From NCBI RefSeq assembly GCF_026151205.1, contig NC_087078.1, positions 7,580,675 to 7,644,674 on the forward strand: a DNA stretch of 64,000 bases, in the 5' to 3' direction. The translations under genes were made by a program, and so were the position numbers. The notes under the pieces are model-generated. The model saw only the letters and a list, made by a program, of their open reading frames with translations, searched no databases and was not told the origin of the DNA. Shown in pieces: positions 4,766 to 37,300 of the stretch. This DNA is from Bolinopsis microptera (lineage: Eukaryota > Ctenophora > Tentaculata > Lobata > Bolinopsidae). Numbering within the stretch: the first letter of the stretch is position 1; the number at the start of each line of letters is the position of its first letter.

Positions 4766-4993
4766 TATAAACATTCACCATGTCAACCTTATAACTTAAT
4801 TAAGTGTAAGAACTAAACATTCACCATGTCAACCTTATAACTTAATAAACTGTAAGAACTAAACATTCACCATGTCAACCTTATAACTTAATAAACTGTA
4901 AGAACTAAACATTCACCATGTCAACCTTATAACTTAATAAACTGTAAGAACTAAACATTCACCATGTCAACCTTATAACTTAATAAACTGTAA
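4766..4993. repeat. 46-bp tandem repeat, left half
   Basis: About five copies of a 46-bp unit containing acattcaccatgtcaacctt and ending near aataaactgtaagaact. Copies start near 4771, 4817 and every 46 bp after that. The same unit resumes at 7633 after the GGA-rich element, so the array was probably continuous before that element inserted. There are no variable spacers between units. Confidence 0.9.
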
Positions 4994-7631: not shown

Positions 7632-7632
7632 C

Positions 7633-7785
7633 TGTAAGAACTTAACATTCACCATGTCAACCTTATAACTTAATAAACTGTAAGAACTTAACATTCACCA
7701 TGTCAACCTTATAACTTAATAAACTGTAAGAACTTAACATTCACCATGTCAACCTTATAACTTAATAAACTGTAAGAACTAAGAA
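7633..7785. repeat. 46-bp tandem repeat, right half
   Basis: About three more copies of the 46-bp unit, differing slightly (aacttaacattcacc instead of aactaaacattcacc). They restart at ctgtaa, the exact point where the left half stopped. Confidence 0.9.
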
Positions 7786-8673: not shown

Positions 8674-10680
8674 TTACATGCCAATAGTCTCAGGGAAAGC
8701 GTCTTGAACATAGAGCATCATATTATAATCCGTCATTTCAATACGACCCTTCAAAATGTTTGGGCCTAAAAGTAAGGACAAAGATTGAAGACATTCTACA
8801 GAGGCAGCCTTTAAAAGATTATTGTCTGACTTCAGCCCGTAAAATAATCCATCAAAGAAGTCATTTATAAATGGCTTTATCTTAATTTTAGTTAATCGTC
8901 TAAAAATCATCGGGATGCATTTATAAATTGTTTCCAGGAGATGCTTGTGATGTTCAAAGTTCCGTTTTCTAGTGGCACTTGAAATTTTCCGAACCATGGG
9001 AAGTAGGTCAGATTTAGTATCGTTAACGTCGCTCAACTCCATGAACAGCCTGACAGCACCATCAGTACGCTCCCAAGGTTGGGATGGTCTTTTGAAGTGA
9101 TGAGAAGCAGAGCAACCCCCAGCACCAAGAGCCTTGCCCCCTCGCCCCATCTTGGGGGCCAGAGACCCACAGGAGTACATAACCTGGTTTGTATGAGCAG
9201 GATCGTCTGCCATCGCCACCCCAAATACAGCGGGCTTCTTGCTGAGATCAGAGTAAAGCGTGCTGTCATCTTCCTGTCCATCAACAGCATCAAGAAGTTC
9301 AGACAACTTAGCTACCACATCATTGGACAGGGGTGATAAGTACGCCCGGACAATGTTGGAAATAGCAATAGCTGCACCCTGTCTTACTGAAGGTATGTTA
9401 TCTTCAAGGTTCATATAGAACAGCGGCATTAATCTGTCAATGTAAGCTCGGCATTCTTCAGCAAAAACAGACACAAAATTACCACACGCAGTACAAGCAG
9501 CATCCCTAACCGGCCAACTATCATCCTCAAAACAAACAAGCAGTCCCTGGATCAGGGTTGGAACATGAACCCTCACTGGATCACTTCCAACTTTAGTGGC
9601 CAGCTCAGCAATACAAGCGCAAGCCGCTTCTCTTACAGCGTGGTTATCAGCTTCAGACTGTTTGATGTAGAAGGGCACTATAGAGTTGAGGTGTAACTCA
9701 ACAGCCTTCACTCCTGTCACACTGAACAACATTCTCCAAGTTGTCTGGCAGTGGATCCTTACCCCTTCAGCTATGTAGTACCTGTTGAGACAGAGAGGTG
9801 GGAGGATCTGGGGATAGAACTCGTCCCTACCAGCAACAGGGATACCCAGCAAGAAAGCACGGGTCGCACAGCATGCTGCCATTCTTACCTGTGACCAATT
9901 ATCTGATAGACCCCTCTCTAGGACGTCTGCAAACCGCTTTCCTTCACTCCAAATGTGGCCCTTGTTTTCTGATTGTTCGTTGAGAGGGTGTATGGAGACG
10001 AGAGCACAGCACACCATATACCCAGTCTCCCGGACAAACCTGTTTGTGTGACTTAAAGAACCAAACACCAGATCCAACAGAGCACTGTCAATACAGTCAT
10101 CAAACTCGGCTCCAGTGTTGGTTATGATGCATTCCAGTGCTTTCATGTTGGTTTCTAAGTTCCCCCACCCAGCTGTATCGTGGAACACCGACTCAGAAGT
10201 GTCCCCATTCAACTTCTCTTTTATCTTGTTGTCAGCCTCTTCGTGTCTCTCCAAACACACTATAATACCAGATAATAACTCCGACTTGCAGGACAAGTAA
10301 ACGCTAGTCCCTCGGAACTTAGCAAGAGCACCAAGGAGTTGCCCGGCAGCAGTACGAACCCTTGTCTCGTGGTGTGTAAGATACTGCTGTCCTGCGTTGG
10401 TGGCGGTGGTGAAGAACTCTGGTGAGCAAGTTTCACTGCAACAGTCGATGTAGAGAGACAGAGCTTGTAGAGCACCGTGCAGTTGCTCCCATGGTATTGA
10501 CTCTTCTGGGTTTATGGAGTATTCTGAGTCATTGAATTCTACTTTTCCTTTGATTAGGATGAGAAGAGGTGATTCGTTTTCTGTTCCAGAATTCGCTTTT
10601 AGGTGTCGAGAAAGGGCTCCGATCCCACGATCTCGGTCAAGCTTCTTGTGTGATGATAGCGATTGTATAATTGAATCCAT
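8674..10680 (-). CDS. HEAT-repeat protein, 668 residues, single exon
   Basis: An uninterrupted 668-codon frame from ATG at 10680 to a stop at 8674. Repeated helix starts of HEAT/ARM type are visible: VRTAAGQLL, VRETGYMVC, VRMAACCAT, VREAACACI, VRDAACTAC and VRQGAAIAI. They are spaced through about residues 105-430 and predict an alpha-solenoid scaffold that binds partner proteins. A Gly/Ser-rich segment (about 490-520) separates this from a second helical region with LFYGLKSDNNLLKAASVECL near the C-terminus. There is no signal peptide or membrane helix. The lack of introns contrasts with its neighbours and could reflect retroposition or intron loss. I do not recognise the orthologue. The product is very likely real; the function is unknown. 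Confidence 0.85.
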   Translation of the reverse strand: MDSIIQSLSSHKKLDRDRGIGALSRHLKANSGTENESPLLILIKGKVEFNDSEYSINPEESIPWEQLHGALQALSLYIDCCSETCSPEFFTTATNAGQQYLTHHETRVRTAAGQLLGALAKFRGTSVYLSCKSELLSGIIVCLERHEEADNKIKEKLNGDTSESVFHDTAGWGNLETNMKALECIITNTGAEFDDCIDSALLDLVFGSLSHTNRFVRETGYMVCCALVSIHPLNEQSENKGHIWSEGKRFADVLERGLSDNWSQVRMAACCATRAFLLGIPVAGRDEFYPQILPPLCLNRYYIAEGVRIHCQTTWRMLFSVTGVKAVELHLNSIVPFYIKQSEADNHAVREAACACIAELATKVGSDPVRVHVPTLIQGLLVCFEDDSWPVRDAACTACGNFVSVFAEECRAYIDRLMPLFYMNLEDNIPSVRQGAAIAISNIVRAYLSPLSNDVVAKLSELLDAVDGQEDDSTLYSDLSKKPAVFGVAMADDPAHTNQVMYSCGSLAPKMGRGGKALGAGGCSASHHFKRPSQPWERTDGAVRLFMELSDVNDTKSDLLPMVRKISSATRKRNFEHHKHLLETIYKCIPMIFRRLTKIKIKPFINDFFDGLFYGLKSDNNLLKAASVECLQSLSLLLGPNILKGRIEMTDYNMMLYVQDAFPETIGM

Positions 10681-11122: not shown

Positions 11123-13350
11123 CTAAATTTTATTAAGCCGACAAATGGGATTTTCTTGCACCATATTAAGATTAACTTTAGGACCTATCAGTTCTCTTAT
11201 ATTGTTTATTCCATATTTGATCATCGTGGGACGTTCTAAAGATAAACCCCAAGCTATGACATTGACATCTTTAGGTATGCCCATCGGTAGCAACATTTCT
11301 GGTCTAAACATACCGGAATTACCGATTTCCACCCATTTCTTCAGTCCAGGATGGTATGAAAATATTTCCATGCTTGGTTCTGTGTAGGGATTGTAAGCAG
11401 GCTTGAACTTTAGCTTTTCTAGTCCAAGCTTTTTAAAGAATGCATAAAGTGTTCCGATAAGATGTCCCAGGGTTAAATTCCTGTCAGCCACTAAACCCTC
11501 TATCTGATGGAATTCTGCCAAGTGAGTTGCGTCCAGGGTCTCATTACGGAAAACTCTATCAATACTGAAGAGGATGTATGATTAATGAATTTGATAATCA
11601 GGCAAAAAATAATTTTTAACTGAGGAGGTAGGTTCATATTACATTTCTAAGGATAGGGTGAAAACCACTTAAGATATTATCATGATCTATGATTTGACAA
11701 TTCCAACCATACATTCAAACAATATCAACAATACATTCTAATGATGAACAGTTAATTTTACTATTATTAAATACCTGAACATTTTGACTGGTTTGAACTC
11801 CTTTTGTTGAGCCAAAGCATACAGCATTCTTGCACTGACTGCAGTTGTGTGAGTTCTCAGGATGTTTTTCTGTGCTTCAGCAATTTTCCAGTCGTAGTTG
11901 TAGCCAGTTGAGCCATAACCCCCAGACTCATGTATCGTCTTGACTCGTTCCAGGTAGTCAGAGGGAAGCTTGGATTCCTTTGTCATTTCTGGATCAGAGA
12001 TGAAGAATGTGTCATGGGCATCCCTGGCCGGATGTTGTTGTGGCTGGAAAAGGGCATCAAAATTCCAGAAACCATTTTCAACAAACCTGTTGGTTGGCAT
12101 CTCACTGAAACCCATATCAAGGAATATCCTTCTAAACTCAGTTCTTACTTTCAACAGTGGATGTAAATATCCACTTGTTACTGGGGCACCTTTTGCTTCG
12201 AAGTTGTAGTCTTTGAAGGATTTCTTCTTCCAAGAAGCATCCTGTAGCATATCAGCGGTAAGATCTGCTTCAGGACGCTCGATGATGGTTTTAAATTCAC
12301 TACCTTTTGTAAGAGAGTAAAATTTTGTCACAATGGGAGTAATAAGCTTCCTTTTCTTAAGATCTTGAATTTTCTTTTCTTCGACATTTTGCCTATTTTC
12401 GATGTCCACTAAAACAGCCTTAACCACGTCAATTGCACCGTCAACTTTACGGAAAACAGTAGGTCCATTTGCATGCTTTTTATCCATGGCCAGCCATCCA
12501 AGAGTCATAGCTTTGCTAAAACCGATTTTTGCATTTGGCATTTTCATCAGATCCTTTTGGAGTATACCATCTTTGGTAACAGCTGAATACAACAGAAACT
12601 CATAACTTCCATTAGCAACGAAACTTTTTCCTTCATTTGTCAGTTCCCACTTAGATATTTGCTTCTGTTCTGCCTGAAATGATACAAATTTAACTTGGAA
12701 AGTGGAGAAGCACACAATACGTCTTATTGTACCACTGAAATATCCCATTGCGAAAAAGTTTTAAAGTTAATACATTCCTGATTTTGAGAAATAAAGCATT
12801 TGAACAAAACTGCAGACCTAGTCTTATATATATATGATTTGGTTGAGGGGACAAATTAAAGACAATCTCACCATATTTAATTTAGCCATTATAACTGATA
12901 AGATGACAAAATTTGTCTCAGTGTTGGGGACCGGCCCGAAGTACCAGCCAATTATGTTTACTCAAAAATATGTATAATAATTATTATCTATTAAAAGTCA
13001 AAAACTCACACAATATTAAATATTGTTGTTATTAAAAATGGATTTTATTTAACAAGCATAGCTGAGCACAGTTAAAGTTGCCTTTAGGATTTGTAAAGTT
13101 GAAACTATCCTATTAATACACTTTCTGAATTGTAAGAGTAGACCTCTGCTGTTAAAGTAGTATTTATCAGCAAATTCTTCATAGTTGTACAAAATAAGCT
13201 CACCTTGATGTACTCTGTAGGAAGAGCTAGCAAACTTTTAATTGCTCCAACAAGCTTTTGATGGTCCAAACCATTCTCAGAGGCAAAACTCAGTGAACTT
13301 ATTTCTTTCTGCTCCGAAAGTGTGTCTAGAATAACCTGATCCAGTGACAT
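11123..13350 (-). CDS. FARSA: phenylalanyl-tRNA synthetase alpha subunit (cytosolic)
   Basis: Catalytic alpha subunit of the cytosolic alpha2-beta2 phenylalanyl-tRNA synthetase, which charges tRNA-Phe. Three exons join in phase: 13204-13350, 11775-12673 and 11123-11564, giving 495 residues against about 508 in human. The N-terminal exon is the winged-helix start ([16 protein letters not shown]). The second holds the linker and the start of the class II core, with [36 protein letters not shown] and [15 protein letters not shown]. The third begins with motif 2 ([11 protein letters not shown]) and carries [16 protein letters not shown], then motif 3 ([20 protein letters not shown]). All catalytic motifs look intact. 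The start at 13350 matches the family. A further upstream exon (16827-17091) could join it in phase. The beta subunit is not in the window. Confidence 0.97.
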
Positions 13351-18142: not shown

Positions 18143-20187
18143 CATGCTCAGCTACACGGACAAGTCCCATCTATTGAGACAATAGATCCTAACAAACTGA
18201 GCCACGCAGTCATCAACCTATCGACCAAGATCCAAGAGATAACACCACACCAACTCTTCCTCTTCTATCTAGGGAAATCGTTTGCACCAACACCTGCATT
18301 ACCAGATTATTCCAAGTTCAGACTGAACATTCTTCAGTTTGCCTACAAGCTTAGATGGGCATGGTTTTGGCACACACAACCCCAGCCAAAAGCAACACCT
18401 CCGACCATTGCAGCGATAAAAAGTATGGAAAGAACCCTCATTAAGTCGGATGAAACTAAGCCTTTAAAAGTATGCAATAACCACTGTTTAGAGCTTTACA
18501 TAGAGAGAGTAACAAAAGACCTGTTACAAACAAACAGCTCTACCAGATCTAAGCTTCCTGACAATATCCCAGTAGAATCCAGAAAAGCCTTATCAGATAT
18601 GGCAAAGTGGAAAGATGTTGTCATCAGACCAGCTGACAAAGGTTCACAATACTTCTTTTTAGACCGAGAAGACTACATCAAGAGGGTTAAAGAACACCTA
18701 GATGCAGAAACCTTTGACACTGTTCAGAAAGAAGAAGCCGAGCATGCTACAAAGCTAGCAATATCAGATTGGACAGCAAAGTATCATGAAGAACCTGGTT
18801 TAACGGAAAAGGTCTACCAATGGGTTACACCTGATGACTTTTGTAAGCCCGGGAACAACTATGTCAACCCCAAAGCACACAAGCCAGAGAAGAACTACCC
18901 TGGTCTTATGATTAGCACAGGATGCGCATCAGCAATCAAGAATCTCTCTGCACTTACAGCATATGAGCTTACTAAGGTTGATCTAAAATATGCCATCCAG
19001 GACAATAATCATATACTAAGAAAACTCGATGACTTAAATAACTCTAAATCCCTTGAGGGCAAGACAGTTATTCACGCATCCTTTGACATAGAGGCTATGT
19101 TCCCGAGTATCCAAAAGGAGGTAGGATTGGAACAATGTAGGCTCCATTTAGACAAGAGAGAGGACCCAATACTCTCTACAGATTGTATAATAGATGCCTT
19201 AGAGACAACTCTAGACAACAACATAACAGAGTTTGAAGGTGTCATATACAAGCAGAAAAAAGGAACTGCAATGGGACCAAAGAACGCTTGTGCTTATGCA
19301 GATACAGCCATCGACAAGATAGACAGAGATGTTATGGAAGGGACTTGCATTGGAGCCACCCTCCTCTCCTATGGGCCAGATACCGCGATGATGTGTATGT
19401 CCCTTGGACCCATGGACGGGAAATGCTCGAGGAATTCCACTTATGGCTCAATTCTAGAATGCCAGGCATAAAATTCACGTTGAAGGCTTCATTAGAGGGC
19501 ACTGAATCCTTAGACACTTTTATATACATGAAAGCAGGCCAAATACATACCAAACCTTACAGTAAGCCATGTGATGACCATGCCTTCCTAGTTCCCACCT
19601 CTTGCCATCCTACACATACCATAAAAAACATACCTTATAGCACTGCACTTAGAATCTTTAAACTTACTTCTGAGCATGATGAATACATACAAGCACGAGC
19701 AAAATACACAAGCTATCTTGTGGCAAGAGGCTATAGCAATAGCTTAATTAACCAGGCCTTTGATAAAGTGGAAACCAAGAGCAGGCTCTCCTACTATCAA
19801 CAACAGAGACATAAGGAGGATGACAGTAGCAAAGAGAGACTCATTCCCCTTGTAACAGATTTCAACCCAGGTCTCCCCAACATAGGACGGATACTTAACT
19901 CCCACAAGCACATCCTACGTCTAGATCTCGAGCTTTGCAAGGTGATTGACCCTGATGGTATTTTCACCTCTTTTAGAGGGACAAAAACACTTCATGAAAT
20001 TCTTATTCATAGCAAACTCCCTCCTGTCGAAGAGCCAGCTGTAGAAGATCCAAGCCACGCCTCTCCAGACACAGCTGAGGATTCTGATTCTGGAGGTTGC
20101 TTCCCTTGTGCTAAGAAATGTGATCTCTGCAAAAACTTCCTGAAACCATCAACCACAATCGGCAGTTTCCACACCAACCAAGTATTC
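18143..20187 (+). pseudogene. Penelope RT ORF, 5' part
   Basis: Encodes the RT fingers, palm and thumb and the Cys-rich linker of the Penelope-like element. The first frame is open from 18143 past the ATG at 18425. It loses the RT homology near 19360, where the second frame picks it up just before the YRDD catalytic box. That gives one frameshift inside the palm. The upstream TAG at 18134 means the true start is lost or lies upstream across a lesion. The product would reverse-transcribe RNA at a nicked target if intact. Confidence 0.8.
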
Positions 20188-21060
20188 TCATCCTCAGTCA
20201 TTGTATCCACAAGAGATCACTTCTACAAAACAAGGTTACAAGATAGTGCAGGTGATGCTAAAAAGACTTATTCCATCGTTAATAAGTTGCTCAATAAAGA
20301 AAAAGTTAGTACTACTACACCTTCTTGCTCTTCAAATCTTGAGAGTGCTAACAACTTTGCACAGTTCTTTAAATCAAAGGTCGACAACATATACAACAAC
20401 ATTTATTTAGAACAACAATCCCTTGAAGATTCTCCTAACTCAGATGAATCTGTTCCTCTTTCTAATAGCCCAAAGATAGTACAATTCCGTCATGTGTCTG
20501 ATGAGGAACTAGTAAGCATCATAAAGAATATGTCTAACAAATTCTGTGATCTTGACCCCATACCTACAAAGATTCTCATCAAGTGTCTCCCAGAACTCCT
20601 TCCTCTGATCTCATTTATAGTCAATGAATCATTAGTTAAAGGTGAGTTTCCTATAAAACTTAAGGAGGCTCTCATTCGTCCAAGTTTGAAGAAACGTGGC
20701 CTTGACGGTGAATTACTATCTAACTATAGGCCTATTAGCAATCTCTCATTCTTGTCAAAAATCATTGAGAAGTGTGTATCTATACAGCTCACCAGTTATC
20801 TTGAGGATAACAACTTGCTTTCTAAAGTTCAGTCCGGCTATAGGAAGTTTCATAGCTGTGAAACTGCAACAACCAAAATCCATAACGACATCTTGATAAC
20901 TATTGACAAGAAAACTAAAGTTGTTCTTTTACTTCTAGATTTGAGTGCTGCCTTTGATACTGTCAATCACCCAAGATTAATCAAGAAGCTAAGATCTGCT
21001 TATGGCATTACAGGCATTGCTCTTACATGGATCAGGTCCTACTTGGCTAACCGTTCATTT
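20188..21060 (+). pseudogene. LINE A reverse transcriptase, N-terminal half
   Basis: In frame with the upstream Penelope ORF by chance, giving a chimeric open frame. RT motifs: NYRPISNLSFLSKIIEKCV, QSGYRKFHSCETA, LLLDLSAAFDTVNH. It stops at SYLANRSF where LINE B begins. Joining 21060 to 29099 yields RSF followed by WVKVKDSSS in frame, which supports a clean insertion. Confidence 0.85.
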
Positions 21061-21229
21061 TGATACTTTCAACACTACTATATAACAAATAATTTGAGGG
21101 ATAGCATGTATTAAGGCCCCCCAAGGGGAGACGTAAGTTTTCGTTGTTTTGTTGGCTGTGAAAGCTCTTACTGCATTACCGCTGCACACTTGTGTTTATT
21201 TTAGATCATAGATATAGCTGATTTCTACT

Positions 21230-21742
21230 ATGTCTGGTATTGCTAAGAGGCAAGGGAGAAACAAAGCCCTCTCCGCCAGTTCCAGTTCCAGTTCTACACC
21301 AACTCAACATAAAACAAAAACTGCTAAGAAGCACACATCATCATCCCTATCAGAGTTAGATGCTTCTTCAATAGCGCCCCAGCTGAACCTTACACCACAC
21401 ATTGCAATGCCAGCCATCCAGCACTCCCACAGAGATAAGAGGAAATGTCCCTGCGACCAGTCACTGGAATCGTCGTGGAAACTAGACTGTGCCAAGTGTG
21501 GACAGTATTGGCATGCGAACTGCGTAGGCCTTAATGGACTAAATAGTAAGATGCTCAATGATCTCACACAATGGCCCTGTCCCTTTTGTTTTGTATCACC
21601 TATTGCTACTATATCCACCCAAGTTGACGTCTGTCACGTCTGCAGAAACACTTTATCACTACAGCAGTCAAACCTGGAAGCAGAAACTGTTACAAGAGAA
21701 ACTCGCTGGGTTGGTAATAGAAACAGAACCTGTAATAAATAG
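21230..21742 (+). CDS. LINE B ORF1a: PHD-finger protein
   Basis: 170 residues. A Ser-rich basic N-terminus (KALSASSSSSSTP) is followed by a PHD finger at about residues 75-125: C-P-C, then CAKCGQYWHANC, then CPFC, i.e. the Cys4-His-Cys3 pattern. A further C-x2-C (CHVCRNT) follows. PHD fingers in CR1-group LINE ORF1 proteins are established. The frame ends soon after, and a 200-bp AT-rich gap with a tandem 20-bp repeat (tcttctttctacaaactt) precedes the next ORF. The two may once have been one ORF1. Confidence 0.75.
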   Translation: MSGIAKRQGRNKALSASSSSSSTPTQHKTKTAKKHTSSSLSELDASSIAPQLNLTPHIAMPAIQHSHRDKRKCPCDQSLESSWKLDCAKCGQYWHANCVGLNGLNSKMLNDLTQWPCPFCFVSPIATISTQVDVCHVCRNTLSLQQSNLEAETVTRETRWVGNRNRTCNK

Positions 21743-21949
21743 GATTTATTACATTAATAATATAAACTCAAATAGTTATATAAAGTTCCAATTATCCATT
21801 GTAAATATATAGTAGTATATAGATCATTGTAAATATATAGTTTAAAGGAATACGTACCGGTTGATACTCTACAATAACATAAATCTTCTTTCTACAAACT
21901 TAATCTTCTTTCTACAAACTTCAACCGGTTCTCATACTATGAATATATA

Positions 21950-23752
21950 ATGATTAGTATTCTGCTAAGTCTAACAGAAACAGCACTCATTTCATCACAA
22001 CTAGAACCCTTAGCCAATTGTTGCAAGCTCATTAAGGATATTGACTTTGTTCAATTCAGTAACAGAATTGACACACTTGGCCAATTTGACCAACGCCTTC
22101 AGCACCTCCTCCTAAAAGACCAGCCCTGGAAATCCTTAGACTCAGATATAAAGCTCCTTTCAGACCAGTTGGCCACTACCCTAGATAAATCACCCACACC
22201 ACCACTCAACACCACAATTGAAAACCTCACAACTTCCTTACAAACTCATGACAAGACTTTCCACTCACTCACCAACCAACTAAATGAACTCAAACAGCAA
22301 GTCACATCCCTATCATCAGACATGACCACCTCACCAACATCAGATCAATCTGAAAAGCTCCTTGAACGGGTGTCACAAGAGCTCAGAGAGGTATGCAAGC
22401 AGGAGCTGAAGCAATCAACAGCAAATCTGCAGCATTCCTCAGAGCATCCACTGACCCTCCCTGGATTACAAGAGCTCAACACCCAGGTTGTAACCCAGCT
22501 GCCCCCACACAGTCGCCCGCCTGTCTCTAAACACACTCTCGATTTTATTGATGAAGAGACAGAGAAGGATCTCATAGAAATGCTTGATTCTCGCACATCT
22601 GAGTTCAAGAATGAGAATGGACGATCTGTTCTGGCTTTTGGAGAAAGATATCACTACACTGGCACAAAATCATCACCCTCATCCGACCAACTCCCAGACC
22701 AACTCCAATCACTCATAACACAACTGAACAATGATCATCCAAACTCTCCACCTGTCAACAGCATTCTCATCAATCGGTATGATGGTCACTCAAGCTTCCT
22801 TCCACAACACTCAGACAACGAACCCCTCATTCACCCTGACTCATCAGTACACACACTTTCACTAGGTCACCATTGCACAGTCACTTTCAGCAAGACTGGC
22901 ACCACAGAACCCTATCACAACCAGTCTTGTCCACCACGATCACTATACACTATGACCAGGGCAAGTCAGGATTTGTACGAACACAGAATTGAATCAGGAT
23001 CTGTCGACTCCGGTGTTCGATACTCTGTGACCCTCAGATCTGTTAGTGCTCTAAACCGTGCTTCTACATGCATCATGGGAGATTCGAACACTGGTGGACT
23101 TAAATTTGGACTTGATCCTAAGAGATCCTTTGGAAAGTTCCTTCCTGGAAAACAAGTCTTCGCACCTACTGTAGAGCACATTGACCCATACGAATCCTGC
23201 GGCTACAAAAACACTGTCATTCTCTGCGGACTCAATGATATTAGGCAGGATAATGTCAAAACTCCATCTGACATCAAACAAGTGTTCAATAAATTTACTA
23301 GTAAAATTGCTGAAATTCAAGCTGTCAATAAAAAAACTAATGTTTATATATGTCCGCTGCTGCCAACTAAATGTATTGATTTAAATAGAAGAGTCAATTT
23401 CTTTAACTATCTGATTCAAACCCAGCTTCTCCCTTTCAACTTTGGTGTGAGACTGGTAGAAGGGTTTCCAAGCTTTGCTGATGAGAACGGGCTATTAAGC
23501 CAACACTTGTCAAAAAGGTTGACGAAGTTCCAGAAACCTGATTACTTACACCTCAATTGGAGGGGGGTTGCAAAATTAGCAGCAATCATTAAAAATACTA
23601 TTCTTCTTAGAGTTAATGGTGGTCGAGACAGACGCAGAGCTGGACGAGGGGGGAATCAGGTGGACTCCACATCATTTCGTGACATAACTGCACGCTCTCT
23701 TCCTGCTGATAAACGAGTATCTGGTGCTCCTGACGGCTACCAACCGTCATGA
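21950..23752 (+). CDS. LINE B ORF1b: coiled coil, AlkB-like dioxygenase and SGNH hydrolase
   Basis: 600 residues. Residues about 1-175 are helical, coiled-coil-like. Residues about 195-365 resemble the AlkB 2-oxoglutarate/Fe(II) dioxygenase fold: LINRYDGHSSFLPQHSDNE gives the HxD iron ligands (H287, D289). LYEHRI supplies the distal histidine (H345), and GVRYSVTLR the RxSxTxR 2OG-binding arginines (R357, R363). Residues about 370-580 form an SGNH/GDSL hydrolase: GDSN (block I, S379), CGLND (block III, N429) and DYLHLNWRG (block V, D531 and H534). The C-terminus is basic (RDRRRAGRGG). All key catalytic positions of both enzymes are present. An esterase domain in CR1-group ORF1 is known; an AlkB domain beside it is, to my knowledge, unusual. 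It overlaps the next ORF by 4 bases (ATGA). Confidence 0.82.
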   Translation: MISILLSLTETALISSQLEPLANCCKLIKDIDFVQFSNRIDTLGQFDQRLQHLLLKDQPWKSLDSDIKLLSDQLATTLDKSPTPPLNTTIENLTTSLQTHDKTFHSLTNQLNELKQQVTSLSSDMTTSPTSDQSEKLLERVSQELREVCKQELKQSTANLQHSSEHPLTLPGLQELNTQVVTQLPPHSRPPVSKHTLDFIDEETEKDLIEMLDSRTSEFKNENGRSVLAFGERYHYTGTKSSPSSDQLPDQLQSLITQLNNDHPNSPPVNSILINRYDGHSSFLPQHSDNEPLIHPDSSVHTLSLGHHCTVTFSKTGTTEPYHNQSCPPRSLYTMTRASQDLYEHRIESGSVDSGVRYSVTLRSVSALNRASTCIMGDSNTGGLKFGLDPKRSFGKFLPGKQVFAPTVEHIDPYESCGYKNTVILCGLNDIRQDNVKTPSDIKQVFNKFTSKIAEIQAVNKKTNVYICPLLPTKCIDLNRRVNFFNYLIQTQLLPFNFGVRLVEGFPSFADENGLLSQHLSKRLTKFQKPDYLHLNWRGVAKLAAIIKNTILLRVNGGRDRRRAGRGGNQVDSTSFRDITARSLPADKRVSGAPDGYQPS

Positions 23753-24894
23753 CTACTCTAACTAAAGAGGTATGTAAACACTGCTGCAAGGGTATCTATG
23801 TGGGCCAAGCCATAGTCGAGTGTTCCGAATGTAACCATGCAACTCATCATAAATGCTACAATATTGTCAATACCGATTTATGCGGTAACTTTCTCTGCAA
23901 TACATGTGTAAATCTTGCTGTAAAACGATACAACCCGTTCAAATATGATATTTCCGACGAAGAAATCGATCTAGACGATACGATAACTAAGCTCTCGCAA
24001 ATTTTAAACAGTTGTTCTCAGCTTAACAGAAGTCAAATTAATCAAACTCTAGAAACTTTAACCGAAGGTCAAATGTCAATGATGTTTCAAAACATAGACG
24101 GTAACAAAAGTAACTTTGATACTATGTGTATAGATCTTCGCCGATATAACAAAAAGTTTTCCATAATTGCACTTGCTGAAACAAATGTAGGACCTGAATT
24201 AAGTAGTTTGTATCAATTAACCGAATACAATAGTTTTTACCAAGCAACCTTTCGAGAGAAAAAGAAGGGCACCGGAGTTGCAATTTATATCCACCAGTCA
24301 CTAAATGCAACAATCGATAATACCCTCTCCTATGTGAGTGAAAACCTAGAAATCCTATTTTTAAGATTCAACAGTGGTAACTCAAGCACCTTTGTTGGAG
24401 TTTTATACCGCCCTCCGAGTGGCAATTTTGACTTAGCGCTAAGTGAACTAGCCGACACTCTGGACAAAGTCCCCAGACACTCGTATATAGCTGGTGACTT
24501 TAACATCAATCTTCACGGCGACAGCAACAAGGTTGCTAAATATGAACACGTTCTTTACAGTCGAGGCTTCTATCCTCTCATATCTGTAATGACCCATGAA
24601 AAACCCGGCTGTATTCCTTCATGCATCGATAACATCATTACCAATGATTTAGACAACATTATAACATCTGGCACATTCAAAGACAAAATCACACATCATC
24701 ACCCCATATTCTTAGCACTCAACACACACCTTGACCAGAACGATTGCAAGATTAAGTATGAACAGTTTTATGACTACTGTAACTCTAACGTAGATAAGTT
24801 CACCGACAAACTATCCAATAGTCTTGATAACACTGTAATAAATTGTTTTGATACCTTTGCTGACACATTTAACGTTGCTTTTGACGAATGTTAA
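23749..24894 (+). CDS. LINE B ORF2 N-terminal part: zinc finger and APE-type endonuclease
   Basis: Overlaps the previous ORF at ATGA, suggesting re-initiation. Residues about 5-55 are a PHD-like zinc finger (CKHCC ... CSECNHATHHKC ... CNTC). From about residue 105 an apurinic-endonuclease-like domain follows: FQNIDGNKSNFD, LAETNVG, GVLYRPPSGN, AGDFNINL, CIDNIITND and THHHPIF. The final box usually reads SDH; here the Asp position is His, which may matter for activity or may be a clade feature. The frame ends at an inserted (TAAA)n sequence just after FNVAFDEC, before the linker to the RT. Confidence 0.8.
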   Translation: MTTLTKEVCKHCCKGIYVGQAIVECSECNHATHHKCYNIVNTDLCGNFLCNTCVNLAVKRYNPFKYDISDEEIDLDDTITKLSQILNSCSQLNRSQINQTLETLTEGQMSMMFQNIDGNKSNFDTMCIDLRRYNKKFSIIALAETNVGPELSSLYQLTEYNSFYQATFREKKKGTGVAIYIHQSLNATIDNTLSYVSENLEILFLRFNSGNSSTFVGVLYRPPSGNFDLALSELADTLDKVPRHSYIAGDFNINLHGDSNKVAKYEHVLYSRGFYPLISVMTHEKPGCIPSCIDNIITNDLDNIITSGTFKDKITHHHPIFLALNTHLDQNDCKIKYEQFYDYCNSNVDKFTDKLSNSLDNTVINCFDTFADTFNVAFDEC

Positions 24895-25369
24895 ATAAAT
24901 AAATAAATAAATAAAGTCAATTTTTACAGCACAGCAATATATATCTAAATATCAGATCCTCTGTAATCATAATGTATAAAAAAAGGAGCTTTTCTCTGTG
25001 CTGAAGGATGAATCAAGGCAGATCATGGTTCTGTTAGCAGGCCACCCTAGTTATGGACAATACATATATATAAAATAATTAAATTATAATTTTAAAATTG
25101 TGTCAAGATTGAACTAAAACATAACTCAGGGTAAAATAGACGTATTCCCTTCGTCAAATTAACTATTTACAATACTAAACTTAAACGAACTCCGGGTAAA
25201 ATAAACGTAATCCCTTTGTCAAACTTGCTATTTACAATAAGTTAATAAATTAATACGGTTGAAAATTATGTCATATTCAATAACAATGTAGCATCAATAT
25301 AATTGATACAAATGAGGAGCATACAGTGAGAATTGCACATAACAGGAGGACTGGAGGTATGGAGCAATA
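24895..25369 (-). mobile_element. small insertion between endonuclease and RT of LINE B
   Basis: About 470 bp that breaks ORF2. It begins with (TAAA)n, so on the minus strand it would end in a (TTTA)n tail like a short LINE or SINE. Inside is an imperfect direct repeat (cgggtaaaatagacgta / cgggtaaaataaacgta) about 67 bp apart at 25130-25245. No coding potential. The exact right border lies between about 25340 and 25385. Confidence 0.5.
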
Positions 25370-27604
25370 ATGATTGACAGTGCACCTTTCCACTGTTTCA
25401 AGTTAGAAACCCCGAAATGTACAAAACGCACTATGCAAAACAATCCATGGATTACACCAGCAATTATAACATCAATAAATCACTGTCACGAACTATACGA
25501 AAACTGGGTCAAAGCTCGCAAAGTCAAGTGCAATCTAGGAGATACTGACACAAAAGGTGGCTTCTGTCACTGCGCAGTATGTAACAAAAAGCGCAGTGAG
25601 TACTTAACTTATAAATATTATAGAAAAGAACTCAAAGTTATACGTGAAAAGGCTCAAACTTCGTACAATATGGGTAAATTTAATGAAGTTCAAGGTGACA
25701 GTAAGAAAACATGGCAACTAATCAATAAGATACGCGGCAAAGGGAAACGAGAAATTAAACCCCCGTTTGTTATTAATAATGAGAAAATAATGAACCGTAG
25801 AATTATAGCTAACGAATTTAATAATTACTTTGTATCTCTTGCCCCTAAGTTGAATGAATCATACAGTACAACCGGTCAAATTAGACTAAGTCCAATTCAA
25901 TGCTTTACGGACTACTTACCAAGGCCAAATACCTCAAGTATATTTCTCAGCGATTGTACACCAGAAGAAATAGAGAAAATCATTAGCGAACTCAAGAATG
26001 GAAAAGCTAGTGACATCCCTATTCACGTCATCAAACGAACGTCTAAGATTATAAGCCCACTCCTGTCAGTATTATTTAATGAACACATGAGAAATGGAAC
26101 TTTTCCAGACCGACTGAAAATTGGTAAAATTAGCCCTATATACAAAAAAGACGGTACAGAATATCTCGAAAACTATAGGCCAGTATCTACCCTAGCTGTG
26201 TTCGGAAAGTTATTTGAGAAAGTAATCTACTCCCGTTTGTACAGTTTTCTTGTGTCGCAGAACGTTTTGTTTGAGAACCAGTTTGGTTTTAGGAAGAGTC
26301 ACTCAACTAACCACGCCCTTAATTACTCAGTTGACTATGTAAACTCCCATATAAAGGAAAAGCAACATGTATTAGGTATCTTTATTGACTTATCAAAGGC
26401 ATTTGACACTATCAGTCACGATAAACTTCTCATAAAACTTGACAAATATGGTATAAGAGGTAACGCAAACGAGCTTATTGGAAGTTACCTATCTAACAGA
26501 CAGCAGTACGTTTCAGTTTTAGGTGAGGAATCTGATAAACTCCCTCTTATTTGTGGAGTACCACAAGGTAGTGTTTTAGGACCGCTACTGTTTATAATTT
26601 ACATAAACGATATCTATAACTCATCAGACCTAGGAAAATTTATACTTTTCGCTGATGACACCAATATATTTGTAGTCGACAAATCTGTCCAGAATCTCTA
26701 CCAAAAAGCTAATACTATAATGAATTCTGTTTACAATTATATGAAATGCAATCTTCTCCACATTAACATCAAGAAATGCTGTTACATTCACTTTACACCA
26801 GGAAAGAAGGATGTAACTAGTAGTAGTAGTAATAGTAATGATCTTATTTTAACGTTGAATAACACAGTCATTAAACGTGTTGATGAAACTAAATTCCTCG
26901 GTGTTATTATAGATAAAAACCTTAACTGGAAACCTCATACTGCATATCTTAGTTCTAAATTAAAGTGTGAAGTCGGTAAACTCTGCCGTATGAGAAGATT
27001 TATACCTAAAGAGCTGTATAATGACCTCTACCACACCCTCTTCGAATCTCATCTAGGATATGGGATCTCAGTGTGGGGAGGCATATCGAACAATAGGCTT
27101 GAACCAATATTTAAAATTCAAAAAAAGTGCACTCGTATTCTATTTGGTGATCAAGAGGCATACAGTAATAAGTTCAAAACATGTGCTAGAACCCGCCCAA
27201 TTGGATCCCAAAAACTTGGAGCCGACTTCTATAAACGAGAATCAAGTAAACCCCTTCTCAGCAGAAACAAAATACTCTGCGTGCATAATTTGTATAAGTA
27301 CCACTGTCTACTTGAAATGTTTAAAATAATCAAACTTCACACTCCAATACCGATGTACAATTTATTTCAAAAGTCACCCCGACGTGATAACTACTTTATT
27401 AACCCCGCTGCAACCAATTTGTTTGTATATAAAACCTCGAATATGTGGAATAAATTCCTTAAACCTTCTAGTAAGATTGACTTCTCGTCCCCAATTGCAC
27501 TTGTTAAAGGTCGCATTAAAACTATGCTACTCAATGCTCAAAAAGCTGGAAACACTGATGAATGGTCAGAACTCAACTTTGATGGAAATGACATGTGCCT
27601 ATAA
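25370..27604 (+). CDS. LINE B ORF2 C-terminal part: reverse transcriptase
   Basis: 744 residues beginning inside the endonuclease-RT linker (NNPWITPAIITSINHCHELY). RT motifs in order: NYRPVSTLAVFGKLFEKVIY, FGFRKSHSTNHAL, FIDLSKAFDTISH, GVPQGSVLGPLLF, and the catalytic box FADDTNIFV. Then KFLGVIIDKNLNWKPH and a C-terminal domain around LGYGISVWGG. Motif order and wording place it in the CR1/L2/jockey group. There are no internal stops. It would carry out target-primed reverse transcription if joined to the endonuclease. Confidence 0.9.
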   Translation: MIDSAPFHCFKLETPKCTKRTMQNNPWITPAIITSINHCHELYENWVKARKVKCNLGDTDTKGGFCHCAVCNKKRSEYLTYKYYRKELKVIREKAQTSYNMGKFNEVQGDSKKTWQLINKIRGKGKREIKPPFVINNEKIMNRRIIANEFNNYFVSLAPKLNESYSTTGQIRLSPIQCFTDYLPRPNTSSIFLSDCTPEEIEKIISELKNGKASDIPIHVIKRTSKIISPLLSVLFNEHMRNGTFPDRLKIGKISPIYKKDGTEYLENYRPVSTLAVFGKLFEKVIYSRLYSFLVSQNVLFENQFGFRKSHSTNHALNYSVDYVNSHIKEKQHVLGIFIDLSKAFDTISHDKLLIKLDKYGIRGNANELIGSYLSNRQQYVSVLGEESDKLPLICGVPQGSVLGPLLFIIYINDIYNSSDLGKFILFADDTNIFVVDKSVQNLYQKANTIMNSVYNYMKCNLLHINIKKCCYIHFTPGKKDVTSSSSNSNDLILTLNNTVIKRVDETKFLGVIIDKNLNWKPHTAYLSSKLKCEVGKLCRMRRFIPKELYNDLYHTLFESHLGYGISVWGGISNNRLEPIFKIQKKCTRILFGDQEAYSNKFKTCARTRPIGSQKLGADFYKRESSKPLLSRNKILCVHNLYKYHCLLEMFKIIKLHTPIPMYNLFQKSPRRDNYFINPAATNLFVYKTSNMWNKFLKPSSKIDFSSPIALVKGRIKTMLLNAQKAGNTDEWSELNFDGNDMCL

Positions 27605-29098
27605 TAAGAACATACAAACTAGTCCATATAGATTTCATACTACACACACAAAATAACACACACAATACACACCACAGTCAAACATAGAAACTATATATTC
27701 ACACATATAACACAGAACACTGATCAGCTCACCCGCTTTACACTAGTGTCTGGACTTGTCTGGAGTGTACGTCTGGAACGTGGGACGGACTCACAAATAT
27801 ATTGTGTAAACGTACGGCGCGAAACTTAAATATTGTATAACTCTATCATTTCATTACCCAGCGTGATTTACCGCGCCAGATTAATGAAATGACGCCGCGC
27901 TATATCCGTGAACCTACCGTCACTTATATCTTATATTTTATATTTCGTATCTCTTACTACGTAACGCGAAATTAAGTTGTATCACACTCCCGGTTTTGGA
28001 CCCCAATGTTAACCTTGCAGCAACTGTGTCAGCCCAATATACTCTAGAAGTATGATCACACTTATTTTAATGAACAAAAGACCCATAATTAATATAATCA
28101 GATACTCGTCAACAGCAGCAGTTTCCGTCCGTGTGATGTGTTGTCCTCCTCCTTTCTGTGTCCCCGTCGTTTTGTTTTGTGAAATGTATTGTAGTAGTGT
28201 TTTAATATTTAAATCGAACGCAACTCAATAGTTAATAATAACAAACACAAATACTATTTCAAATAATTGATTAATATCGATTTATACGAACCAAACATTA
28301 ATTATTTTTTAATAACCTTTTATATATGTGTTAAACGATCCAGGGCATATCTAAAATTCGATAATGAACTTCATATATTATTAGTGCCGCGTGCTGATAA
28401 ATATTCTGGGAATCAATCCACCCAATCGTGGCGATAACATATTTTTGTGCTTGGCCGGTTTTAGGTTTGAGTTTGTGCTCCAAAAGTGGTAAATCGGGTG
28501 CTAGTAAAGCTCTTGCAGGCAACTGGCTCCTTTTGCCAACTGCTTTTGGTTTAAGCGCGGACTCACATTTGGAACTGGCACTGGTATAATTGTAATATCC
28601 TACGAAGTCAGCATACTATATTATTTTGCAAAACTCGTTTAATATCTTGACAATATTTAAAGTTTATGGATTTAGGTTTAGGCGCGGCGCGCTGCTTATA
28701 TGTTATAGCTCATTCAGCTTCTGTTTTCAGCGATGTGTTGCTACACACTGTATAGAATGTGGAACAAGCGCGGTGCCGCGCCTAAGCAGCAAAAGAGTTA
28801 TTCATTTTAAAATTTATTTTTGTATCTCAAAAATGATGTAAAGTTTTTAATATGACGTAGAATTAAAGCTATTTCCGTACAGCCTAAGTGCTAAGCATGC
28901 TCGTTAGATAAACTATGAACAATGAACATAACATGCTAGCTTTCTTTATTTTTGTAAGTCGTGTCGGCTGACATCTTGGGTTGTACTGGATGTAACAAGT
29001 TTATTATCGGATGTCTACTTATATTTATTATGATATCATTATTCATTGTAATGGCAATAAAATTTAAATTTTGTTTTACTTAAAATTTTGTTTTACTT
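27605..29098 (+). mobile_element. LINE B 3' UTR and tail
   Basis: About 1.5 kb without a gene. The last 110 bp (from about 28985) match another copy at 33800-33895. The end is a duplicated 16-bp aaattttgttttactt unit, typical of the short tail repeats of CR1-group LINEs. The middle part may include other repeat fragments that I could not separate. Confidence 0.5.
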
Positions 29099-30100
29099 TG
29101 GGTCAAAGTCAAGGATTCGTCTTCCTCATCAACTGTTCTTGAGATAGGTGTGCCACAAGGTTCAATCCTTGGCCCCCTGCTATTCATAATGTACACCAAA
29201 GATCTTGAGAACATTGCAAGTATGCATGGGTGCTGTATTCATTTGTATGCTGATGACACCCAGCTGTATTTCACTCTTGATTCTGATGACCCATCACAGC
29301 TAGAGCACAATATGGAACACTGTATGTCTCATATCAAGAAATGGATGACAAACAATTTCCTTCAACTGAATTCTTCTAAGACTGAAGTCATCGTTATATC
29401 CTCTAAATTTGACTCAAAAAATATTCCAGCCTCTCTACAGATTGTTAAGGATCAAGAGCCACATGTTGTTAGTGGAACTGTGAAGAGTCTTGGGCTGTAT
29501 TTGGACAGTTATCTTTCAATGAGTGATCAGATTACGTCAGTGGTTCAAGCATGTAATATTCAGATCAGAAATTTGTGGTTTATTGCATCAAAACTGTCTT
29601 TTAACCTTAAGATTCAGCTTGTTCATGCTCTAGTACTCTCTAGAATTGATTATTGCAATAGCGTATATTTTGGACTGAGCTCTTATGATTTAAGTCGTTT
29701 ACAGAAGGTGCAAAATTCTGCTGTAAGATTTATTTTCGGGAGAGGAAGAAAGGCACACACTACTCCACTACTTAAGAAAGTTCATTTTCTACCAGTTAGA
29801 TTTAGAATAGATTTTAAGATTGCCCTACTTGCCTACAAGTGTTTAAATAATATAGCTCCTCCTTACTTAAAAGAGTTGATATCTCCTAGGCAGCAAAGTT
29901 TTAAAAATGTACGTCTTGATAATGATTATTTTTACCTTAGTTTTCCGCCCTCTCCTAACTATGTAAACACAGAGAAAGCTTTTAGTCACTGTGCAGTTAA
30001 AGTATTTAATTCCCTGCCATACGACATAAGATCAGCTGAGTCAGTTGCATCTTTCAAGACCAAACTTAAAACATACTTCTTTTCTCTAGCATTTGATTGA
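29099..30100 (+). pseudogene. LINE A reverse transcriptase, C-terminal half
   Basis: Starts WVKVKDSSSSS, then GVPQGSILGPLLF and the catalytic LYADDTQLYF. It continues with LQLNSSKTEV and the C-terminal RT block ending FSLAFD-stop. All RT motifs are intact, so apart from 5' truncation and the LINE B insertion this copy shows little decay. Confidence 0.88.
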
Positions 30101-33556: not shown

Positions 33557-33900
33557 ATAAGTAAAACAAAATTTTAAGTAAAACAAAATTATTATTATTA
33601 TTATATGCCACCCATAAGAGAAGAAATGTCAGGCTACAAGTGTTTTATTGCTCAGTCCTTTCATGTAGCAAATAAATCTAAGCATAAAGCTATGCTAGAG
33701 ATTTATAATCGAGTAAGGATTTGTATGATTTGTAGTGGGAAAATTTATGATAGAGATTAATTTTCGAGTAAAAAACGTATTTTACAAAGCATATCTAATT
33801 TCCACGAGTTTATTATCGGATGTATAAGTTTAACTATTTTATATGATATTATTATTCATTGTAATTATATGGCAATAACATTTAAATTTTGTTTTACTTT
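33557..33900. mobile_element. LINE B-family 3' end fragments in inverted arrangement
   Basis: The sequence gtttattatcggatgta ... catttaaattttgttttact at about 33806-33900 matches the 3' end of LINE B. At 33557-33590 the tail unit appears in reverse complement (agtaaaacaaaattttaagtaaaac). The fragments are 5'-truncated copies or remnants in opposite orientation. Confidence 0.6.
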
Positions 33901-34314: not shown

Positions 34315-37300
34315 ATGCCAATAACAAAAGCAGCGCGAGGGAGGGAGCCAAATTGGAAAGAGTGGGACTCAAAGGCGCAGAAAGCTGGGCTAAGGCACAC
34401 TGTCTTTTGTGGTGGTGGTGACACTTACGTTGGGCATTGGGAAAATAACCTAAAACAAGGAAAAGGTTGGTTTTTTGCTTAAATGTTATATTATGGTCTG
34501 AATATGTCGTCAGTCCTTCCTTACTTCCGTTAGTAACCATGCAACGAAAAAGTTGCGCGCGCGAGGATTGCTTGCGGAGATTTGATGTATAGATAGCCTG
34601 TGATCTATGAATGCGCGGCGCAACTGTGTTTTAATATATACGATGTAATGTATAATATTAGGTTATAAGCCCAATTTGTACGTGGCACGCGTAGTGTATT
34701 GATGTGTACACGAGTATAGTTACCTTTGCTTACAATTTAAGTTCTTTGCTTTACAAGTTAAGTTCTTTGGCAATTGAACTGAATTTCAAGTGTTTCCTGT
34801 ACTTAATGCTTAATTTATCAATATTATTATCATGGAGACTGAAGTGAGCTGATTGGAGCTTGTACTTAAATTTATAGTAAATGTGAAATGGAAATCTAGC
34901 GTTCGCCAAAACGAAACAACGGGCGCAATTCTTGTTTGTATACAAATCAATTCAGTTAAAACATGACATAACATGTTTAATATCTAGTGATGTTCATTAT
35001 TGCCAGGGTATAAAAATTCAAGGTAACATTATCTCATCAGATCTGACTGGGAATTTCAACAATAATCCTATAGTCAAGAAATTAAGTTACAAATTATCAG
35101 TAACAATCAATAACAACCAAAATCATAGTAGAAATAATGAATGATAAGAAGGAATATTGACCTGAAGATTGTTCATTGTCCTTAATTGTGCTCATTACTG
35201 AGGATTCTTCTAACCATTTCGAGCGACATTTCAGGTGCGTCAATTGGTACCATATGTCCACTCATAAGTACCCAGTAGTATTCAAAGTTCTTGTAAGCTT
35301 TGTGGAAAGCTCCTGTTCTCTGCTCCTTTGCCAATGATGGTGGATATAGCGGAATTCTTTCTTGTTGGTAATAATCCTCCAAGCTTGGCCAAGTCAGCTT
35401 ATTTATCCACTTGTCCTGTCCAGCAGAGTTGATGATTAAATCTAGCATTCTATTGTAGACTATGACTCTAACACCATTTGCTAAACAGTCGTCAACTGAG
35501 TCGATTACATCAATTATCATTTCATCTGCCAAGTAACTGTGACATGCAACTCCTTGAGCCCCCCACTTTATCTCTTTTGGAATGATGCCAAACTTTTCTC
35601 TCATCTTCTCATTCATCAGTTTCTTTACATTTTCTCCATTGTAATCTATGGTCAGCCTTTTCATTGGGTAACTACTGCTCTTGAACGATTTGACGAAATT
35701 CTTTTTCTCTGATTTGGTCATCATTTCGTAATTTTGTAAGTGCTTCAAATTTTGTATGGCTTCCCAGTTCGGTCCGACAACTCTCTTCAGTGATGGGGCT
35801 GGTTGGTGGTGGTAAATAATGTTATAGAAGAACACGTCATCTGTAACATTTTGAATCATTTCCATGATAACTCCTAGGTAGTTACTTGAACTGTTATAGT
35901 CTCCTGACATGTATGCTAGCTCCATGTCCATAGCCATCATTTTCATCGTTTTGTACTGTCGGTAGTCTAGTTGACTCATCTGGAAGAGATAATCAGGGTA
36001 CATGGCTGCTGAATCCACCAGAGAGACTGCACCATCCCCTATAGCTACACCACCGAGTTCAACATCACTCAGGAAGCCTTTACTTTGAGCCTCGACAATC
36101 TTACTGCCAAATACTGGTGCTACTTTACCTCCATATGACTCAGAGAATATGAAGATGGGTGGTAGGCTAGATCCGTTGTAGTGCTTTGCACGAAGCATGG
36201 TGCTGATTTCACCTAGAGCTGTCACCAGGTCATCTGCAACTTCGTAAACTGTGGTTGTGAAGGCATCCTCCTCGTCCACGTAGCTGAAGCCTGCTCCAAC
36301 TGGGGAGTCTATGAAGAGCAGACTAGCTTCTTTTAACCAGGTGTAGTTTCTGGGTTGAAGGTTGTTGTCTAGTGGTCCTGAGAAATTGGTTTGCTTATTT
36401 CGTGTAATTGTATAATCTAATTCCTATTCAAGCTTATGACTTATGAGTATTGGAGTTTTATCAGTTTTAATGTGAAATCCTAACTTACCAACTTCCATGA
36501 AGTTTCCATATCCAGTGCCAGATCCTCCAGGACCACCCTGCAGCCAAATAACAATAGGACGATTATCAACATCACCACAAGGGGTTTTCATAAACCACCA
36601 AAACATGTGAGCTTTTGGGCGCACATCAACATAGCCCCAAGCTTCTTGTAATTCTGCTGGAATCACACAATCTGAGTACACCAAACCCAGCAAAACAAGA
36701 CCAAGTAATCCCCTCCGAATCATGGTACTGCAGTTTATTAAAATACACTACCGAAGAAAGATGCAACAAAATGTAGTATCTGGAACCAGCTTATACTTAA
36801 AAGGAAACAATTTTATCACGACGTACTTGTAATAGGAGATAAACTTATCTTGACAAAGAAAAGGGGGCCGGGCTGAGATTAGGTTCCAGAAAAAAACATG
36901 ACCGACTCAAAGTCAAATTTTAAATAGAGTAGGGCCAGAAACATGACATCACATGGTTTAATGCCACTCCGCTGTTTTCCCAAGAATATCTGTTATCTTA
37001 TATCGGGGCTATCAAAGAGATACTAACGCAGTTAGTACTCTTGTACTAAGTGGTGGGTCTGCTGCTCATTTCCCAGAAAACCAGTTAGTACATGGTACTA
37101 AAGGGTTCATTTTTTGGGTGTCCAACCCCAGAAAAACGGGCATTTTACCTCAAATTTCAATTTTGGGAATGGGTTTTGAGGGTTTTTGATTTTTTTTTGG
37201 GTTTTTATGAATTTTGTTCCTGTTTTTGTAACTTTTTATCTAATTCGACTACATTGAAAACAAAACCCCTACTAAATAGTGGGTATAATAAATCTAGCAA

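Follow-up and report, generated by a model that had tools for sequence, protein, structure and literature searches.

In this study, we describe a LINE retrotransposon, from the ctenophore Bolinopsis microptera, with an ORF1 that joins an AlkB-type oxygenase to an SGNH hydrolase. The protein belongs to a large and divergent family, in which the fusion often stands behind a PHD finger. The fused gene lies within a LINE of the window, that is, the whole stretch of 64,000 nucleotides that was analysed, and the Fe-binding, 2-oxoglutarate-binding and Ser-Asn-His residues are conserved almost absolutely among the relatives. The function proposed for the AlkB domain, demethylation of the element's template, is in our judgement an even call. 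Feature coordinates are collected in Table 1.

Table 1. Features of the AlkB LINE in the window
Feature	Position	Strand	Basis or remark
Whole LINE insertion, 8,034 bp including later insertions	21063..29096	+	Inserted within the reverse transcriptase of another LINE
Left TTTG, target-site duplication or microhomology	21059..21062	+	Empty-site join
Right TTTG, target-site duplication or microhomology	29097..29100	+	Empty-site join
ORF1 N-terminal part, up to inserted DNA	21230..21687	+	Listed ORF 21230-21742
PHD-type zinc finger, ORF1 N-terminus	21446..21592	+	Pfam PHD 0.0051, PHD_4 0.0026, both below cutoffs
Insertion splitting ORF1, 287 bp	21688..21974	.	CAGAAAC copies at 21681-21687 and 21975-21981
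ORF1 C-terminal part as first listed	21950..23752	+	600 codons; codons 1-8 from insertion
AlkB-type 2OG-Fe(II) oxygenase domain, residues 193-366	22526..23047	+	Pfam, structure profiles
HSDNE: Fe ligands His287, Asp289; Glu291 at base-contacting acid position	22808..22822	+	Alignment
Distal Fe ligand His345	22982..22984	+	Alignment
R357-x-S-x-T-x-R363, 2-oxoglutarate-binding arginines	23018..23038	+	Alignment
SGNH (GDSL) hydrolase domain, about residues 370-560	23057..23629	+	Conserved triad, family profile
ORF2 N-terminal part: zinc finger, then endonuclease	23749..24894	+	Exo_endo_phos 2.5e-7
ORF2 interruption, approximate ends	24890..25375	.	Gap between two ORF2 frames
ORF2 C-terminal part: reverse transcriptase with FADD	25370..27604	+	RVT_1 1.3e-36
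3' tail, two TTAAAATTTTGTTTTAC-like units	29063..29096	+	Repeat units

The original prediction treated the 600-codon ORF as a separate 'ORF1b'. This reading is refuted by the relatives and by the inserted DNA, and the ORF is the C-terminal part of one ORF1. A 7-bp target-site duplication, CAGAAAC, brackets the 287-bp insertion, and codons 1-8 of the listed ORF, with its ATG at 21950, lie inside it. The product of the upstream part runs to CRNTLSLQQ.NLE.ET, the same as in the relatives, and the cut falls between LEAET and ALISSQLEPL. In the PHD-bearing relatives, of which seven sequences were read, the whole is a single protein of 682-860 aa with the domains in the order PHD finger, linker, AlkB and SGNH. 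The ORFs at 21230-21742 and 21950-23752 are therefore halves of one ORF1, because the insertion supplies the ATG and eight codons and the relatives are unsplit. Since ORF2 is interrupted as well, the window copy of the AlkB LINE is disrupted in both reading frames.

The AlkB residues predicted for the 600-codon ORF, namely HxD at 287/289, His345 and R357-S359-T361-R363, were all located at the positions claimed. The window protein matched Pfam 2OG-FeII_Oxy_2 at 5.3e-14 over residues 231-363 (53.3 bits against a cutoff of 31.2), and an AlkB domain of this type was found at E<=0.01 in 42/42 family members tested. The window sequence alone placed an ALKBH8 chain first among solved structures (2.2e-6, residues 183-363), and the 42-row family profile matched ALKBH2 at 4e-12. 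A PHROG match to 'alkylated DNA repair' was also obtained (2.3e-8). The central claim of an AlkB domain fused to SGNH within a LINE ORF1 is thus borne out by the Pfam match, the catalytic motifs and the ORF2 downstream.

Conservation was analysed in an alignment of 138 proteins, with a mean column identity of 16%, comprising P0001 (the window protein), P0002-P0042 and P0060-P0156 minus P0155; P0155, an alternative model of the gene behind P0154, and the 17 proteins of an AlkB-only search were left out. His287, Asp289, Glu291 and S298 are identical in 138/138 proteins, window included. His345, Arg357, Thr361 and Arg363 are identical in the 137/137 rows with letters, P0035 ending before His345, and Tyr234 is identical in 131/131 such rows. 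The Asn-x-Tyr contact to 2-oxoglutarate, N275-R-Y277 in the window, varies: column 275 holds N in 95 and T in 43 of the 138 proteins, and column 277 holds Y in 117, F in 20 and C in 1. Among the 397 columns filled in >=80% of rows, 14 have zero entropy, with 12 in AlkB and 2 in SGNH. In line with the view that the intact catalytic residues argue for selection, these residues are strongly constrained across the 138-protein alignment.

The SGNH motifs GDSN (377-380), GLND (427-430) and D531-x-x-H534 likewise occupy the positions predicted. The Pfam match of the window sequence alone stayed under the Pfam cutoff (E 0.05), and Lipase_GDSL_2 was matched at E<=0.01 by 13/42 family members, the best at 2.7e-6. 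The SGNH part of the 42-row family profile matched a DUF459 protein (6.5e-5) and PatB (7.3e-5). Counted over rows with letters, Ser379 is present in 136/137, the sole exception being P0154, whose gene model runs into another gene. N429 (133/133) and G427 (129/133) in block III and D531 (123/127) and H534 (127/128) in block V are similarly retained. Block I reads SDSK in the very divergent subgroup P0150-P0154 and P0156, where the domain is present.

A PHD finger was detected at E<=0.01 in 13/42 family members, and a C4HC3-like finger pattern occurs in 46/138 aligned proteins, some of the others being shortened at the N-terminus. The window copy scored as lacking the pattern because its finger sits on the other half of the ORF. 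Gain and loss of the PHD finger amount to 8 changes on the tree, a number inflated by shortened gene models. As a pointer to the CR1/L2 clade, the PHD fingers are only suggestive. The ORF1 linker is probably helical, as the family profile weakly matches coiled-coil chains (E 0.006-0.01).

The AlkB element is inserted in the reverse transcriptase of a second, different LINE (19288-21058 and 29101-30100), whose reverse transcriptase is 29-33% identical to its own. The reverse transcriptase of this second LINE breaks off at 21058 and continues from about 29100 onward (RVT_1 positions 2-106 and 119-194), and its frame is restored when 8,038 bp are left out, with five equivalent joins corresponding to TTTG at both ends. 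The stop of ORF1 overlaps the ATG of ORF2 in ATGA at 23749-23752. The N-terminal zinc finger of ORF2 weakly matches a PHF23 PHD chain (E 0.006), and the closest solved chains to the reverse transcriptase of the AlkB element are R2 and L1 ORF2p (4e-15 to 4e-14). The window copy therefore carries the LINE features of an ORF2 with endonuclease and reverse transcriptase, TTTG at the ends and a 3' tail, and it is free of LTRs, the longest direct repeat in 20900-29400 being 52 nt and internal. An RNA fold of the 3' end was unremarkable (z 0.39). Two pieces of this end recur nearby, 28995-29081 at 33804-33899 (83%) and 29067-29098 at 33559-33590 on the other strand (100%); these are truncated copies of the AlkB LINE or a SINE using its tail.

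Other features of the window were also recorded. A degraded ORF at 18425-19471 resembles a reverse transcriptase of another type (RVT_1 E 0.027), which we take to be possibly Penelope-like. A GGA-rich repeat of about 2.1 kb lies in 4768-7780, with a strong purine skew on one strand and, on its flanks, direct 46-bp repeats and TGGAGACA / TGTCTCCA minisatellites in opposite orientation. The minus strand encodes ordinary eukaryotic genes, a HEAT-repeat protein and a phenylalanyl-tRNA synthetase alpha-type fragment (8674-10680 and 11738-12748), and neighbouring serine carboxypeptidase (S10) ORFs (35182-36279 and 38143-39234). The related proteins of 40641-42434 and 46393-48384 have Vps62-like repeats (Pfam Vps62 4.4e-19 and 6.4e-21) and a C-terminal aerolysin-like domain (Aerolysin 7.2e-6 and 1.1e-4, the second below cutoff). 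A run of GTTT x67 occupies 49562-49826 within an ORF whose start resembles MORN repeats by eye. Rfam and tRNA scans of the window found none.

Relatives of the window protein were collected in two protein searches. The first returned 41 relatives, 28-74% identical to the window protein, and the AlkB Pfam domain was present in 41/41. The second, with a diverse alignment as query, returned 109 relatives, 12 of them already in the first set; the domain was called in 107, and the sequences of the remaining two, P0090 and P0109, contain the HxD motif. Each search scored the roughly 8,000 candidates with the largest number of words in common with the query, so conserved motifs were favoured and SGNH-only or AlkB-less relatives could be missed. 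A one-off capture, against which the original prediction had set its proposal, is rejected by the 41 and 109 relatives, the AlkB-SGNH fusion with intact residues extending across a large divergent family. The LINE context of the fusion was observed in the window copy.

Pairwise distances in AlkB and in SGNH are correlated (r 0.813; 0/999 permutations as high; 120/138 rows used), and both modules therefore travelled together. The AlkB-only protein search had 17 matches: three distant AlkB proteins that stand alone (P0052, P0058 and P0059), and pieces of proteins from this family. A tree of 80 AlkB rows separated the 75 family rows from 5 outgroup rows at a support of 72/86, where the outgroup branches are long, the bootstrap is unsettled and the outgroup includes an ALKBH2 fragment and no ALKBH3; it is compatible with a single AlkB capture by the LINE family. 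No relative was found in two scans of viral contigs with family profiles, in a scan of viral contigs with stand-alone P0052 or in a scan of genome contigs; tblastn against phages and plasmids gave no match, and 0/4 proteins matched NCBIfam.

The ctenophore Mnemiopsis leidyi is named for 4/109 second-search relatives, including P0154 of the divergent subgroup. The public Mnemiopsis leidyi gene model ACHWQZ_G019092 (P0154/P0155) joins a piece of AlkB-family ORF1 to another protein. P0155 carries Pfam PF04388, which we take to be hamartin/TSC1. The model is likely an annotation chimera, or possibly an exonisation.

An AlkB domain profile of 12 sequences was used to rank the solved structures. ALKBH2 (9.5e-12), ALKBH3 (4.4e-11) and ALKBH8 (2.2e-9) ranked highest, followed by a 'DNA N6-methyl adenine demethylase' chain (1.8e-4), presumably C. 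elegans NMAD-1, and ALKBH6 (7.6e-4), with E. coli AlkB (0.003) and ALKBH5 (0.021) lowest. P0022 and P0037, compared singly, also placed ALKBH2 first (1.9e-4 and 5.8e-5). By sequence, no solved structure is nearer than ALKBH2 and ALKBH3, and ALKBH5 trails far behind. Tyr234 presumably corresponds to Tyr122 of ALKBH2, and Glu291 is matched in alignment by Glu175 of ALKBH2 (within HRDDE) and by Asp135 of E. coli AlkB. Glu175 of ALKBH2 touches the methylated base, and its alanine mutant was reported inactive (PMC12295762). Asp135 of E. coli AlkB is positioned at N6 of m1A, and the D135I mutant acquires activity on m6A; AlkB is also employed to strip tRNA modifications, letting reverse transcription proceed (PMC7968990). 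An acid also lies close to the active site of the m6A demethylases FTO (Glu234) and ALKBH5 (Glu153) (PMC3985658), and Glu291 would therefore be compatible with m6A too. Taken together, Glu291 and the profile ranking lean toward m1A/m3C as the predicted substrates.

We propose that the ORF1 protein would assemble on the element's own RNA, where its AlkB domain would remove Watson-Crick-face methyls (m1A, m3C) in the manner of ALKBH2/ALKBH3. Such marks would disturb reverse transcription, and clearing them would permit full-length copying of the RNA at the target. The SGNH domain might tether the particle to membranes or release it from them, as proposed for ZfL2-1, and the PHD finger may guide the ORF1 protein to chromatin. 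Because ALKBH2 and ALKBH3 rank nearest, removal of m1A/m3C that hinder reverse transcription from the element's own RNA would be favoured. The earlier suggestion that the element repairs or demethylates its own RNA or cDNA would likewise fit this ranking. The variable 2-oxoglutarate contacts Asn275 and Tyr277 may count against template demethylation. The fuller picture, an old animal LINE lineage with its own ALKBH2/3-like template-repair enzyme in an RNA-packaging ORF1 that clears m1A/m3C, is put forward tentatively, at somewhat below even chances.

Several alternatives were weighed against template demethylation. The AlkB domain might instead erase host-written m6A (or m1A) on LINE RNA and so keep readers off. 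The orchid Ty3/gypsy elements lend this a precedent, their ALKBH5-like domain removing m6A from ssRNA in vitro with a proposed role against host control (PMC9289625), and the acid near the active site of FTO and ALKBH5 agrees with it (PMC3985658). The family profile, however, matches ALKBH5 at 0.021 versus ALKBH2 at 9.5e-12, and in mouse ES cells m6A is described as favouring young L1 instead of impeding it (PMC9289625), so we consider evasion of this kind unlikely. Action on DNA, either repair of single-stranded cDNA or of opened target DNA during target-primed reverse transcription or erasure of DNA 6mA, also appears improbable. ALKBH2, the top match, does repair alkyl lesions in DNA (PMC12295762). 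The 'DNA N6-methyl adenine demethylase' chain was matched too (1.8e-4). Nevertheless, the sequence gives no pointer to DNA over RNA, and LINE ORF1 proteins are in general the RNA-packaging partner.

A protein substrate, whether a host factor or the ORF1 protein, would be consistent with the description of ALKBH enzymes as acting on DNA, RNA and proteins (PMC12494543); the residues might also be kept for the stability of a binding module. We regard either as very improbable, given that the Fe and 2-oxoglutarate ligands and Glu291 are strictly conserved, that Tyr234 is retained throughout and that the best-scoring relatives act on nucleic acids. The window copy is split by insertions and lies within a nest of elements, which could raise the suspicion of a chance neighbourhood, in which a LINE merely adjoins an AlkB gene of the host or the assembly was mis-joined. 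This explanation is scarcely credible and already contradicted: relatives up to 74% identical carry the same fused protein on other contigs, and a host AlkB gene beside a LINE is rejected by the ATGA overlap of ORF1 and ORF2 and by the clean empty site of the whole unit, with TTTG at both ends.

The proposed template demethylation by a LINE can be set beside several known systems. In RNA viruses, the AlkB domain lies in the replicase. The Alphaflexi-, Betaflexi- and Closteroviridae are, like the AlkB LINE, selfish RNA replicons with an AlkB, for which RNA repair or demethylation is proposed (PMC9289625); unlike it, they are viruses, and the viral contig scans returned no family relative. ALKBH2 and ALKBH3 are the best sequence relatives of solved structure and share HxDxE, but are cellular 1meA/3meC repair demethylases. 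These two enzymes are not known to have a PHD, SGNH or retroelement context. The Ty3/gypsy elements of the orchid Phalaenopsis are retrotransposons that also encode an AlkB-family domain with the Fe/2OG residues kept, but they are plant LTR elements in which an ALKBH5-like domain occupies an additional ORF and is described as a recent acquisition (PMC9289625). In the AlkB LINE, by contrast, the domain is fused within ORF1 to SGNH, belongs to a divergent family and is ALKBH2/3-like by profile.

Esterase-type (type IV) ORF1 proteins of L2/CR1/RTEX LINEs, such as zebrafish ZfL2-1, share the C-terminal SGNH triad, and ORF1s of CR1/L2 elements also include PHD fingers (PMC3905857, PMC4120745, PMC5408684). 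In ZfL2-1, the N-terminal part ahead of SGNH is a coiled coil, and the esterase binds phospholipids and liposomes (PMC3905857). AlkB goes without mention in the ZfL2-1 study (PMC3905857), as do AlkB and words beginning with 'oxygenase' in a survey of 448 Jockey-superfamily elements (PMC4120745) and both AlkB and oxygenase in a study of bdelloid ORF3 (PMC5408684). The AlkB named in a retrotransposon review is host ALKBH1 (PMC4982230). Capture of an enzyme by a LINE ORF1 has precedents, as has AlkB in LTR retroelements; a report of AlkB in a LINE was not found in the open-access PMC literature among the matches listed, which speaks only weakly for its absence.

No component of LINEs is less well understood than their ORF1 proteins. 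With the AlkB LINE family, AlkB capture, known from RNA viruses and from LTR elements of orchids, would reach LINEs as well, where it occurs in a diverse, not recent, family. A strictly conserved ORF1 domain of demethylase type suggests that AlkB LINEs face a real hindrance, or a host defence, in the chemical modification of RNA (or cDNA). If template demethylation is true, methylation or alkylation of RNA bases would limit the copying of LINEs enough to warrant a dedicated and strictly conserved enzyme.
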